DNA from: Leifsonia aquatica
GTDB lineage: Bacteria > Actinomycetota > Actinomycetes > Actinomycetales > Microbacteriaceae
NCBI RefSeq assembly: GCF_014190775.1
Contig: NZ_JACHVP010000005.1
Coordinates: forward strand, 62,001 to 126,000
Reading direction: 5' to 3'
DNA length: 64,000 bases
Shown piece after piece: positions 21,607 through 26,453 of this stretch (position 1 is its first letter; each line of letters starts with the position of its first letter). The position numbers and the translations under genes are program-made. A model generated the notes under the pieces. The model saw nothing but the letters and a program-made list of their open reading frames with translations. It was not told where the DNA came from and did not search any database.

Positions 21607-23349
21607 TCAGATGACCTCGTACTCCTCGAGCAGTCGCCCGATCTCCGTGCGCTCGACGAAGCGCTTCGCGAATCCCGGGATCGGGAGCTTCTTGCCGTCG
21701 CGCAGGTACCGGGTGGACTTGATCAGCTCGCGCACGTCGTAGACCGAGCCGAACACCTCGGGAACGCCGCGTTCCACGTCGAGCAGCTGGTAGACCGCCT
21801 CCATCGCCGTACGAACCGAGTACTCGGTGGTGAAGATGCAGTCGCGGGTCGACTCGGCGAACTGGCCGATGAAGGCGAAGTTGGTCACGCCCTCCGGCAC
21901 GACCGCGGGACGGTCGCCCGCGGTGCGGGGCAGGAAGAACGCGGTGATGAAGGGCATCATGCACGGCCGGGTGATCGCACCGGTCGCCGCGAGCTCATCG
22001 ATCTCGTCGATCGGGACGCCCAGGTGGTACAGCCACTCCTGGGTGATCTCCTCGCCGGTGCACTCGCGCATCGGCTTCTTCACATAGTCGCCTGGTACGT
22101 CCGTGAACAGCCCGTAGAACCACACGACGGTCTGGTCGTCCGGCTGCTTCGAGAAGTGCGGCTGGCGGTTGACCGTCCAGCTGAGCAGCCACGAGGAGTC
22201 GCGCGCGGTCACGATGCCGCCGGTCACGACCTTGCCGCTGCGCGTCGGGCGCTTGGCGATCCGCTCGATGTGGGCGGGGATGCGCTCGTCGAGGGTGGTG
22301 ATCGATGCGGACTCCCACTGCGACTTCTCCGGGAAGGTGCAGAACTTGTCGGGGTGCCCGAACGACGGATCCTGCGCCGCGATGTTGCGCCAGAGGTGCC
22401 AGCTGCCACCGTCGTGGACTACCGGATCCCACTCCGCCTTCGTGTGGTGGTCGCCCCAGCGCGAGTTCTCGACGAGGGACCCGTTGGTGACGAACACCAG
22501 GTCGTCGTCGCCGAGGTCGACGCCGCCCTCCACGCCCTCGCGGATCCACTCGATGCGGCGGGCGGTCTTCCGGTCGGGGGCGATGTCGAAGCCGACGTCC
22601 ATCACCCGGGTGTCGAACTGCACGGTGACGCCGTGCTCGCGCAGCCAGTTGATGAGCGGCAGGACCAGCGACTCGTACTGGTTGTACTTCGTGAACTTGA
22701 GGGCGCTGAAATCCGGCAGGCCGTCGATGTGGTGGATGAACCGCTGCACGTACAGCTTCATCTCCAGGGCGCTGTGCCACTCCTCGAAGGCGAACATCGT
22801 GCGCCAGTACAACCAGAAGTTCGAGGCGAGGAAGTCCGGTCCCATCACCTCGTCGATCCGCTTGTCGTACAACGACTCCGGCAGGGCGAGCACGAGGTCG
22901 ACGAGGTCCTTCGTGGCCTTCTTGTCGAGCGTGAACGTCATCCCCGTCTTCGCATCCTGTCCTCGGTCGACGGTCGCGCGCTGCAGCGAGTAGTTGGGGT
23001 CGTCTTTGTTGAGCCAGTAGAACTCGTCGAGCACCGAGCCGTCGACCTCGAGCGACGGGATGGAGCGGTACAGGTCCCAGAGGCACTCGAAGTGGTCCTC
23101 CATCTCGCGGCCGCCGCGGATGAGCCAGCCGGTCTCCGCGTCGCCGGCGCCGTCGAGCGCGCCGCCGCCGACGGCGGACGCCTCCAGGATGGTGATCCGC
23201 TCGCCCGGCACCTGGCCGTCGCGGATCAGGAAGGCGGCGGCGGCGAGTGACGCCAGGCCTCCGCCGACCAGATATGCCGACACGCGCTCCGATCGCTCCG
23301 GCTTGCGCGGGCGTGCGAACGCCTCGTAGTTCCCCTTCGAGTAGTACAT
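21607..23349 (-). CDS. ohyA: Oleate hydratase
   Basis: 580 residues, the usual length. The N-terminal FAD fold AYLVGGGLASLAAAAFLIRDG is followed by ITILEAS and the family stretches GWLIRGGREMEDHFECLWDL, MGPDFLASNFWLYWRTMFAF and NFAFIGQFAES. It adds water to the double bond of oleate and related free fatty acids to give 10-hydroxy products and is thought to detoxify unsaturated fatty acids. The ATG at 23349 has GGGAGG upstream. A 26-bp perfect palindrome just upstream suggests tight repression, but no TetR gene is beside it. Confidence 0.95.
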   Translation of the reverse strand: MYYSKGNYEAFARPRKPERSERVSAYLVGGGLASLAAAAFLIRDGQVPGERITILEASAVGGGALDGAGDAETGWLIRGGREMEDHFECLWDLYRSIPSLEVDGSVLDEFYWLNKDDPNYSLQRATVDRGQDAKTGMTFTLDKKATKDLVDLVLALPESLYDKRIDEVMGPDFLASNFWLYWRTMFAFEEWHSALEMKLYVQRFIHHIDGLPDFSALKFTKYNQYESLVLPLINWLREHGVTVQFDTRVMDVGFDIAPDRKTARRIEWIREGVEGGVDLGDDDLVFVTNGSLVENSRWGDHHTKAEWDPVVHDGGSWHLWRNIAAQDPSFGHPDKFCTFPEKSQWESASITTLDERIPAHIERIAKRPTRSGKVVTGGIVTARDSSWLLSWTVNRQPHFSKQPDDQTVVWFYGLFTDVPGDYVKKPMRECTGEEITQEWLYHLGVPIDEIDELAATGAITRPCMMPFITAFFLPRTAGDRPAVVPEGVTNFAFIGQFAESTRDCIFTTEYSVRTAMEAVYQLLDVERGVPEVFGSVYDVRELIKSTRYLRDGKKLPIPGFAKRFVERTEIGRLLEEYEVI

Positions 23350-23711: not shown

Positions 23712-24434
23712 ATGCATCAGAATCCCAGGCGACTCGTGCGCCTCCTCGCCGTCGCCACGGCCGCGCTCGCGGGCCTCGGGCTCGCGGTCGGCGCTGCAGC
23801 GCCCGCCGTCGCCGCCCCGGCCGTCTCGAGCGTCTCCGTCTCGGCGCCCGCCACCGCGACCGCCGGCGACACGTTCGACGTGACCGTGACGCTGACCGGA
23901 GCGACCGACGTGTACGGCTACGAGTCCGTGCTCGCCTTCGACCCGGCGGTCGTCTCCTACGTGGACGGGAGCGCGGTCGTCACGGCGGGCGGCTTCGACT
24001 CGGTCCGCACCGGAGCCGGCTCCGTCGACGTCGTCTACACGCGCCTCGGCACGTCCCCGGCGCTGTCGGGCGACATCAGCTACACGCTGACGTTCGCCGC
24101 GACGGCGGAGGGCTCGACGGCGTTCACCGTGCGCTCGCTCTCGCTGGTCGACTCCGCCTCCGCGGTGACGGCCTCCACCGACGCGGCGACCAGCCCGGCC
24201 GTCGCGATCGCGCCCGCCGCAGTGACCTCGCCGACGCCCACCCCGTCGACCGGCGTGGCCGGATCCGGCGGGACCGGCACGGGAGGCTCCTCCACCTCGA
24301 CCGCAGCCGACGACCTCGCCTCCACCGGCTCCAACGCCCTGCCGTACGTGATCGCCGCCCTGGTGCTGCTCGCCCTGGGCGCCGCCGCCGTGCTGTTCAC
24401 CGTCCGCCGCCGCCGGGCAGGAGACGCCCGATGA
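23712..24434 (+). CDS. Cell-wall-anchored cohesin-domain protein (LASTG sortase substrate)
   Basis: 240 residues. Signal peptide to about residue 34 (PAVAA), then one cohesin-like beta domain (about 36-165): VSVSAPATATAGDTFDVTVT, LTGATDVYGYESVLAFDPAV, TRLGT and TLTFAATAEGSTAFTV follow the cohesin strand pattern. A Thr/Pro/Gly/Ser-rich wall-spanning linker (about 170-200) precedes LASTG (202-206), a hydrophobic helix and RRRR, a class E sortase signal. It overlaps the next gene by 4 bp (ATGA), and that gene encodes a dockerin-bearing amidase. The simplest reading is a single-cohesin anchor that holds the enzyme on the cell wall. Cohesin assignment is by pattern; binding is inferred. Confidence 0.82.
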   Translation: MHQNPRRLVRLLAVATAALAGLGLAVGAAAPAVAAPAVSSVSVSAPATATAGDTFDVTVTLTGATDVYGYESVLAFDPAVVSYVDGSAVVTAGGFDSVRTGAGSVDVVYTRLGTSPALSGDISYTLTFAATAEGSTAFTVRSLSLVDSASAVTASTDAATSPAVAIAPAAVTSPTPTPSTGVAGSGGTGTGGSSTSTAADDLASTGSNALPYVIAALVLLALGAAAVLFTVRRRRAGDAR

Positions 24435-26320
24435 CCGCCCGCCGATCGACCCCGAGGAGCACGACCGCCATGCACACCCGCACGAAGAGCCGCCGCGCCG
24501 CGACCGCCACGGGCGTCGTCGCCGCCCTGGCCGCGCTCGTCGCGACCGGAGCGGTCGTCGCTCCCGCCGCCTCCGCCGCGCCGGCCGCCGCCGCACCCAC
24601 GGCCGCCTTCCTCGCGCCGTACTACACCGCGCACGACCTGACCGGCGACAAGCAGGTCACCACCGCCGACCTGGATGCGCTGACGACGCACCTCGGCGAG
24701 ACGTCCGCGTCGGCGGGCTGGTCCGCCGCGGCCGATGTGGACGGCGACGGCACCATCACCGTGAAGGACCTCGTCGGCCTCTCGCAGCGCATGATCTACG
24801 ACGACGGTCCCTTCCAGCTGGTGGAGGCGTCCGCCCTCGACATGCAGGCCGCGATGAACGCCGGCGTCACCACCTCGGTAAAGATCACGCAGGAGTATCT
24901 CGACCGCATCGCCGCCCTCGACCGCACCGTCGTCGACACCGGCACCGGCGGCCGCGCGCTCAACTCGATCATCTCGAAGAACCCGCAGGCGCTGACGATC
25001 GCCGCCCAGGCCGACGCCACCCGCGCGCAGAAGGGGATGACGAGCATGCTCCTCGGCGTCCCGATCGCGGTGAAGGACAACTACGACACCGTCGACATGC
25101 CCACCACGGGCGGCTGCGGCTGCTGGGACGGCAACCAGACCAGCGACGACGCCACGATGGTGAAGGGGCTCCGCGCGGCGGGCGCCGTCATCCTCGCGAA
25201 GGCCAGTCTGGACGAGTTCGCGTACGGCTTCGTGTCCGAGTTCTCCTCGTTCCAGGACCCGGGCAAGAGCCTCCTGGTCGCCAGCCCGCTCAACACCAGC
25301 AAGACGGCCGGCGGCTCGAGCGGTGGAACGGGTGCGGCCATCGCCGCGAACCTGGCGGGCATCGGCTTCGGCACCGACACGGGAGGCTCGATCCGCGTCC
25401 CGTCGACGTACAACTCGCTCGTCGGCATCCGCCCGACCGTCGGCCTGACCAGCCGGGACGGCATCATCCCGCTCGCGCTCAGCCAGGACACCGGCGGCCC
25501 GATCGCCCGCAGCGTCACCGACGCGGCCGTCGCCCTCGACGCCGTGACCGGAGTGGATGCGGCCGACCCGATCACCGCCGAGCAGTCCGGCAAGGTGCCG
25601 ACGTCGTACACCGCGGCGCTCGACCCGGAGGCCCTGAAGGGCAAGCGGATCGGCATCGTCACCTCGATGCTGGGCACCAACGCGACGGTCACGCGCCTGT
25701 GGGCCGCTGCGAAGGCCACGCTCCAGGCTCAGGGTGCGACGGTCGTCGAGCTGAGCACGGTCCCGACCGCGTTCACGGCGACCCTCAACGAGGGCAGCGG
25801 CAGCACGAACGAGTTCAAGCACGACCTGGACGTCTACATCCAGAACCACCTCGCGCCGGCCGTGACCGCCCGCTCCATCGCCGACATCCTGGCCACCGGC
25901 CGCAACGTCACCTCCCGCAACAGCATCTACACCTCGCGGAACAACGTGACCGACGCCCAGTACCAGGCGTGGGCGGGTCCGACGGGGACGCACACCACGG
26001 CCATCGCGACGGGGAACGCCACCGTCACGCAGCTGATGAACGACAACCAGCTCGACTCGCTGGTCTACCCGAGCGGTTCGCCGTACAACACCATCGGCAC
26101 GAACATGCGCCTCAGCCCGAACACCGGGATGCCGGCCATCACCGTCCCGATGGGGCAGGCCATCGCCTCTGACGGCACCAACCCGGTCGTCGGCGCCAAC
26201 GTCAACCTCGAGTTCCTCGGGCGCGACTACGACGAGAGCGGCATCATCGGGCTGGCGTACGCCTTCGAGCAGGCGACCCACGCCCGCGCGACCGCGTCGC
26301 TGTACGGCCCCCTCAAGTAG
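24431..26320 (+). CDS. Secreted amidase-signature enzyme with N-terminal dockerin
   Basis: 629 residues. A signal peptide (cleavage near ASA, about residue 49) is followed by a dockerin type I module (about 64-122) with two calcium loops, DLTGDKQVTTAD (from 69) and DVDGDGTITVKD (from 102). An amidase-signature domain fills the rest: catalytic Lys215 in AVKDNYD, cis-Ser296 in GGSSGGTG and nucleophile Ser320 in TDTGGSIRVPS, all present. It hydrolyses an amide of unknown identity outside the cell. The ATG at 24431 overlaps the cohesin stop and has GGAG 7 nt upstream, so the two are translated together. An ATG at 24470 would give a shorter signal peptide. Dockerins usually sit on glycoside hydrolases, so this pairing is unusual. 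Confidence 0.88.
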   Translation: MTARRSTPRSTTAMHTRTKSRRAATATGVVAALAALVATGAVVAPAASAAPAAAAPTAAFLAPYYTAHDLTGDKQVTTADLDALTTHLGETSASAGWSAAADVDGDGTITVKDLVGLSQRMIYDDGPFQLVEASALDMQAAMNAGVTTSVKITQEYLDRIAALDRTVVDTGTGGRALNSIISKNPQALTIAAQADATRAQKGMTSMLLGVPIAVKDNYDTVDMPTTGGCGCWDGNQTSDDATMVKGLRAAGAVILAKASLDEFAYGFVSEFSSFQDPGKSLLVASPLNTSKTAGGSSGGTGAAIAANLAGIGFGTDTGGSIRVPSTYNSLVGIRPTVGLTSRDGIIPLALSQDTGGPIARSVTDAAVALDAVTGVDAADPITAEQSGKVPTSYTAALDPEALKGKRIGIVTSMLGTNATVTRLWAAAKATLQAQGATVVELSTVPTAFTATLNEGSGSTNEFKHDLDVYIQNHLAPAVTARSIADILATGRNVTSRNSIYTSRNNVTDAQYQAWAGPTGTHTTAIATGNATVTQLMNDNQLDSLVYPSGSPYNTIGTNMRLSPNTGMPAITVPMGQAIASDGTNPVVGANVNLEFLGRDYDESGIIGLAYAFEQATHARATASLYGPLK

Positions 26321-26337
26321 CGACACCCCCCCGCGAC

Positions 26338-26390
26338 ATTCGGCCCGAATGTCGGGAATCGCTCACGCATTCCCGACATTCGGGCCGAAT
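26338..26390. terminator. Perfect 22-bp hairpin downstream of the amidase gene
   Basis: Perfect 22-bp arms (26338-26359 and 26369-26390) with a 9-nt loop; each arm contains the shorter palindrome ATTCGGCCCGAAT or its complement. It probably ends the cohesin-amidase operon. Related ATTCG..CGAATGTCG words recur at 54693-54757. Confidence 0.75.
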
Positions 26391-26453
26391 CGCGTGCTGT
26401 GGAATCGACGGGGCGCGCGTAGCGTTCCCCGTGAGAGACAGCAGGAGGCGACG

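Follow-up and report, generated by a model that had tools for sequence, protein, structure and literature searches.

Cohesin-dockerin joints have mostly been studied in large polysaccharide-degrading complexes. Anchoring by a sorting signal is one scaffoldin type listed in PMC11557425. Cohesins outside cellulosomes are already known (PMC9012536), and two further reports place cohesin-dockerin pairs in non-cellulose uses, namely the 'planctosome' of Nemodlikiaceae, proposed for peptides (PMC6461901), and the mucinolysome of Limousia (PMC12997984), both of them multi-component assemblies as described there. For the Cellulomonas genomes analyzed in PMC3544764, it is reported that no cohesins or dockerins were found. 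Here we describe two overlapping genes, P0001 and P0002, in a 64,000-nucleotide stretch of the Leifsonia aquatica genome (contig NZ_JACHVP010000005.1, positions 62,001 to 126,000; hereafter the window). P0001 encodes an exported protein with a single cohesin and a sorting signal, and P0002 an exported amidase with an N-terminal dockerin. We consider it likely, judging from the encoded domains and their conservation, that the two form a minimal, one-socket surface-display system for a secreted enzyme resembling peptide amidase. The window genome comprises 4.41 Mb in 9 contigs, and among named relatives, the pair of Leifsonia aquatica H1aii (Micrococcales, Microbacteriaceae) is the closest.

The pair resembles the cellulosome with a non-SLH anchoring scaffoldin (PMC11557425) in that a wall-linked cohesin protein would be combined with a dockerin-bearing enzyme. 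It differs in having one cohesin and one dockerin-enzyme, with no multi-cohesin scaffold and no polysaccharide-degrading enzyme. A cellulosome would be expected to have a multi-cohesin scaffoldin and several dockerin enzymes, whereas in the own genome a single cohesin match (at E ≤ 1) and a single dockerin over the curated cut-off were found, both belonging to the P0001/P0002 pair. Unlike the planctosome and the mucinolysome, the system consists of two proteins only. The words actinobacteri-, actinomyc- and microbacteri- do not occur in the main text of PMC11557425, and among the titles and abstract openings listed by our literature searches, none named such a pair or a cohesin-dockerin system in Microbacteriaceae; an older survey of non-cellulosomal cohesins and dockerins (Peer et al. 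2009) lies outside the coverage of these searches and may list an actinobacterial case. The parts belong to known families, and the conserved two-gene pairing is what is new here.

P0001 lies at 23712-24434 of the window (forward strand, as are all features of the pair; 240 residues, stop codon included in the coordinates), and its residues 47-157 (23850-24182) matched the PF00963 Cohesin profile with an E-value of 4.9e-8 and 33.7 bits, above the curated cut-off of 24.1. When searched alone against the PDB, P0001 gave only a weak cohesin match (E 0.24). The profile built from an alignment of 29 cohesin relatives (A1) gave E-values of 1.5e-8 for the NagJ cohesins and 1.8e-7 for a scaffoldin cohesin, and 26 of the 29 relatives had a Pfam Cohesin match at E 0.01. 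A structural model of the domain was built from two sequences; the best of five models had a predicted local distance difference test score (pLDDT) of 86.8 and the other four had 56.5 to 67.5. The first six rows of a Foldseek search with this model were non-cellulosomal cohesins of Archaeoglobus and Clostridium perfringens. In VIA-align, the model was superimposed on 2vo8 with a Z-score of 16.1 and a root-mean-square deviation of 2.1 over 126 aligned residues; ranks 1-39 were all cohesins, and pilin and adhesin domains appeared from Z 12.3 down. The model therefore indicates a cohesin fold for the P0001 domain. By profile and structure, its closest counterparts are the cohesins of C. perfringens GH84C/NagJ (2jh2, 2w1n) and GH33 (2vo8) and of Archaeoglobus fulgidus (2xdh), which are likewise non-cellulosomal. 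The C. perfringens modules, however, sit in glycoside hydrolases, whereas the P0001 cohesin stands alone on a protein with a sorting signal and the enzyme is an amidase.

P0002 lies at 24431-26320 (629 residues, or 616 from the ATG at 24470, stop codon included in the coordinates) and has, as P0001 does at its start, a stretch that resembles a signal peptide when judged by eye. Its residues 68-120 (24632-24790) matched PF00404 Dockerin_1 with an E-value of 3.5e-7 and 30.8 bits, over the curated cut-off of 22.9, and the genome search placed the dockerin at the same position. The sequence-only reading of the window had described two intact calcium loops; the loops do start at D69 and D102, and the second, DVDGDGTITVKD, is canonical, whereas the first deviates, as discussed below. 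In clostridial dockerins, positions 10 and 11 set specificity. These positions differ between the two halves of the P0002 dockerin, so a symmetric double binding mode seems unlikely.

The amidase-signature assignment made earlier, including the catalytic residues K215, S296 and S320, was borne out. Residues 176-556 of P0002 (24956-26098) matched PF01425 Amidase with an E-value of 2e-75 and 255 bits (cut-off 27), so that all three of the profiles proposed for checking the reading were found over their cut-offs, and the Lys-Ser-Ser triad was kept in all 45 complete loci that we collected (27 from the search of the own family, 17 from the order-level search and the L. aquatica H1aii locus). The best solved relative was the peptide amidase 1m21 (E 9.5e-75, approximately residues 126-620 of P0002), which together with 5ac3 has the same triad by alignment; these enzymes have no dockerin in the aligned part. 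The match to indoleacetamide hydrolase (NF005688) reached 212.4 bits, under the cut-off of 532. The amidase domain of P0002 contains only two cysteines, C229 and C231, arranged as C-x-C (25115-25123) just after the catalytic lysine. This arrangement, with exactly two cysteines, was found in 46 of 47 amidase domains, the exception being L147, which has no cysteine in the domain and reads GAGAW at that site; 1m21 also has no C-x-C at the aligned place. The pair of cysteines could possibly form a disulfide, a metal site or a redox switch.

The C terminus of P0001 (24315-24431) carries LASTG at residues 202-206, followed by a hydrophobic membrane stretch and the positively charged end RRRRAGDAR. 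This was as predicted for a one-cohesin, wall-anchored protein: the tail scored 16.5 bits against TIGR01167 LPXTG_anchor (cut-off 15.9), and 24.5 bits against NF058582 LAVTG, just below its cut-off of 27. A sorting-type motif, as defined by a loose pattern, was present in 42 of 47 cohesin proteins; two of the other five are cut by contig ends, and the remaining three are L064, L072 and L149. Two sortase-domain matches were found in the own genome. One, L108, is a class E sortase (NF033747, 244.2 bits, cut-off 160) with a TITTC motif recognized by eye. The other, L109 (1213-2124, forward strand), scored 52.6 bits as class E, far under the cut-off, and by eye seems to have no catalytic cysteine. 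Class E sortases use the signal LAXTG (PMC5148588). With an LAxTG motif, a hydrophobic stretch, a positive tail and a class E sortase encoded in the genome, P0001 has the predicted features of a class E sortase substrate.

Both parts were adjacent on one strand in all 45 complete loci, which are spread over five families of the order, the own family among them, and a [RK]LGxS motif within a TRLGTSP-like context of the cohesin was likewise found in 45/45. Since the pair recurs in this way, chance profile matches for the cohesin and the dockerin were ruled out. The cohesin comes first in 40 loci and the amidase in five (L078, L139, L143, L148 and L149). In the window, the two genes share an ATGA stop/start overlap (24431-24434), and their coordinates and frames were as described in the sequence-only reading. 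A ribosome-site-like AGGAG (24419-24423) lies 7 nucleotides upstream of the start at 24431, and the ATG at 24470 has an AGGAG 10 nucleotides upstream, so that either start of P0002 looks usable. Among the 39 cohesin-first pairs in two frames, a stop/start overlap was present in 38 (ATGA in 31, GTGA in five, TGATG in two) and absent from L133. A ribosome-site-like sequence was found before the overlap start in 12 of these 39 pairs, before the later start in 25, and before both in four, including the window. Translational coupling of the two genes is therefore likely, and the overlap suggests that P0001 and P0002 are carried on one message; a simple scan returned no promoter-like and no terminator-like sites.

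Two loci have both parts in one open frame. In L091, a frame of 874 residues contains the cohesin, LSATG, a membrane stretch, a second signal-peptide-like stretch, the dockerin and the amidase. In L148, whose genome has a listed completeness of 69%, a frame of 980 residues contains the dockerin, the amidase, the cohesin, LAVTG and a tail.

We also compared the surroundings of the pair by crude gene calls in 31 loci, with the 17 order-level loci outside this comparison. The pair was the sole family present in all 31, and the next most common neighbor family occurred in six. Among ten genomes of the genus, a homologue of the downstream neighbor in the window was found in eight, and in G267 and G360 it was far from the pair or on another contig; a homologue of the gene located upstream of the neighboring oleate hydratase-type gene was found in two of the ten, the own genome included. 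As the pair is kept while the flanking genes vary, it behaves as one unit, subject to gain, loss or movement as a whole. Weak support, as kinship was ignored in the calculation, came from mirror-tree distance correlations, which were 0.62 for cohesin-dockerin, 0.66 for cohesin-amidase and 0.76 for dockerin-amidase, with none of 2000 shuffles reaching the observed value in each case. Taken together, the 45 loci, the conserved overlap, the swapped order, the shared open frames and the changing flanks support the minimal one-site display that had been suggested for this amide hydrolase.

In 398 genomes of the family (Microbacteriaceae), Pfam Cohesin was found in 27 at E ≤ 0.01 (20 over the cut-off) and Pfam Dockerin_1 in 32 (25 over the cut-off), and comparison of regions with the window pair identified the dockerin-amidase in 29. 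In 27 of these 29 genomes the locus was complete, with the cohesin part beside the dockerin-amidase or in the same frame; of the other two, G056 is truncated where its contig stops, and in G155 the halves are split between the ends of two contigs. Every one of the 20 genomes whose cohesin exceeds the cut-off falls within the 29, as do 24 of the 25 with a dockerin over the cut-off. The remaining one, G264, has its dockerin (L065) in an 86-residue frame near a contig end, and the fetched contig holds only an amidase of 30% identity. The A1 profile matched 20 of 396 genomes across the order. Five of these, counting the own genome, belong to the same family and the other 15 to four further families. 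Regions from 18 of them were newly fetched; 17 had a complete pair and one ended at a contig end. Across the phylum, the profile matched three of 396 genomes, namely the own genome and two with weak matches in other kinds of protein. Within the genus, the pair was present in three of the ten listed genomes. The other seven had no cohesin match at E ≤ 0.01 and no close amidase, their amidases being only 37-41% identical (E ≤ 1e-30). One of these congeners, G304, had a weak dockerin match (E 0.0095), and its fetched region (L075) had no match to the pair.

Several weaker candidates were sorted out along the way. The sub-cut-off cohesin matches L026 and L029 look, by eye, like another exported protein family, and L031 and L034 like other surface proteins; L025 (G132), also below the cut-off, belongs to a pair. 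The weak or odd dockerin matches L060 and L061 belong to pairs or to a cut pair (L077, L072). Our reading of the weak family matches covers those other than the cohesin matches L027, L028, L030, L032, L033 and a second match in G021, and the dockerin matches L062, L063 and one in G072. A match in Streptomyces niger was dropped, as it covers only the tail of P0001 (residues 121-237). The phylum-level cohesin matches L150 and L151 lie in frames of more than 2000 residues, with no dockerin-amidase in the fetched stretch; in L150 (3693-10511, reverse strand), from another family of the phylum, the cohesin-like stretch belongs to a GH31 protein that also has FIVAR and SLH domains. In the own genome, a GH101 endo-alpha-N-acetylgalactosaminidase-type protein (L003, 124-3057, forward strand) matches Dockerin_1 weakly, over one calcium loop (14.5 bits). 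A second dockerin-like stretch was seen in frames of 1241 residues in G360 (L073, 3969-7691, reverse strand) and 1259 residues in G321 (L074, 5333-9109, forward strand), neither of which had a further Pfam match. Plasmid carriage was examined by tblastn of P0002 at E 1e-40; six plasmid records contained amidases of 35.6-40.2% identity, and in the one record whose surroundings were read (H1) no cohesin was annotated beside the amidase, in a gene table that is known to be incomplete.

From the domains, their order, the overlap, the conservation and the presence of a class E sortase, we infer mutual binding, calcium dependence, one-to-one docking and wall location. P0001 would be exported and processed at LASTG by the class E sortase, which would fix its single cohesin to the cell wall. 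P0002 would be exported as well, and its N-terminal dockerin, with calcium in the loops, would plug into the P0001 cohesin, one enzyme being held per anchor, while the overlapping stop and start would let both proteins be made in step. At the cell surface, the enzyme could then remove amide nitrogen from small extracellular peptides or amides. Such a substrate is a tentative guess from the nearest characterized relative, and we regard it as possible rather than probable.

A number of observations weigh against this display model. In the first dockerin loop, DLTGDKQVTTAD, calcium-ligand position 3 is occupied by Thr instead of the usual Asp or Asn. This loop is thus non-canonical, and the earlier description of both loops as intact was right only in part. 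Threonine is found at this position in 44 of 45 complete loci and serine in one, and positions 1, 5 and 12 of the loop are acidic in all 45; such conservation suggests that the loop is altered but maintained, and speaks against decay. The predicted structure of the dockerin-amidase reached a pLDDT of only 30.3 and was left unused. Three of the 29 aligned cohesins had no Pfam match at E 0.01, and L072 (G185), later a row of A1, owes its place among the complete loci to its position, its match being weak (BLAST E 0.005). In L091, Pfam at E 0.01 found the cohesin and the amidase and missed the dockerin, which was found by BLAST (2.3e-15). In L148, the dockerin scored 21 bits, under the cut-off of 22.9, and a docking role is not obvious there, as the enzyme is already joined to the anchor. 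The tails of L064 and L072 are of membrane type only and L149 has neither feature, so that simple wall anchoring does not fit these three lineages. Finally, the cohesin-dockerin correlation of 0.62 dropped to 0.24 when the amidase was removed (partial correlation, 0 of 5000 shuffles, kinship again ignored).

Alternatively, the same display could serve an enzyme that acts on the cell's own envelope, such as amidated peptidoglycan peptides or other wall amides. The inferred wall location would indeed place the enzyme beside wall peptides. We find this unlikely, however, as a core wall function would not be expected to be so sparse, the pair being absent from seven of ten genus genomes and carried by only 29 of the 398 genomes of the family, and as the nearest solved relative is named a peptide amidase. 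It is less probable still, and in our view a poor fit, that the two proteins do not bind each other at all, with the cohesin-like domain acting as a wall protein for adhesion or substrate binding, the dockerin as a module for calcium-dependent folding or regulation, and a common pathway keeping the genes together. Binding of the cohesin to the dockerin is only proposed, adhesin and pilin domains do match the cohesin model from Z 12.3 down, and the altered first loop would suit such a view. Against it, structural ranks 1-39 are exclusively cohesins, the pair holds the sole cohesin match and the sole dockerin above the cut-off in the own genome, adjacency holds in 45/45 loci with two open-frame fusions, and positions 1, 5 and 12 of both dockerin halves are kept acidic or nearly so. 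That the anchor regulates activity, with the cohesin acting as an inhibitor or partner chaperone that masks or shapes the active site until release activates the enzyme, would also suit strict one-to-one pairing and coupled genes, but it seems very improbable, since the dockerin is N-terminal, ahead of the catalytic domain as in ordinary docking, and nothing points to inhibition.

Display of such amidases on the wall has a parallel within the family. In genome G007, L101 (1249-3705, reverse strand) encodes an exported amidase of the same superfamily, 39% identical to P0002, that differs from it in carrying its own LAATG signal and no dockerin match; Pfam finds only Amidase, and by eye there is no C-x-C at the corresponding place. 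Direct anchoring of this type is an alternative solution to docking.

As for the neighborhood of the pair, an oleate hydratase-type gene of the MCRA family (698.8 bits) lies divergently at 21607-23346 on the reverse strand; in L004, the gene calls show none between the pair and the common upstream gene. A strong hairpin (z -6.75) lies directly 3ʹ of the amidase stop at 26321-26407. Its 20-base core is present as an inverted pair within 26321-26407 and was found at 16 places in the own genome with at most two mismatches (control, 0), which suggests a repeated palindrome family and a possible terminator.

The pair looks like a real means of keeping an enzyme at the cell surface, and one that has drawn little notice. 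A bolder view, to which we give somewhat less than an even chance, sees the two genes as a display cassette sufficient in itself and separate from cellulosomes, moved or rearranged as one unit across five families of a single actinobacterial order. Its calcium joint would be reversible, with a retuned first loop, and the C-x-C may serve as a redox- or metal-sensitive switch; if so, and as far as our searches tell, no strictly one-to-one cohesin-dockerin system for an amide hydrolase would have been known before. Two overlapping genes that encode a one-to-one pair come close to the simplest natural version of the cohesin-dockerin interaction, and the 45 matched sets could teach how specificity is set, with the two natural single-frame versions serving as controls. 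The locus also raises the question of why an enzyme should be held non-covalently when a related amidase carries its own sorting signal. For the actinobacteria, it suggests a route of wall display that annotation would treat as two unrelated proteins.

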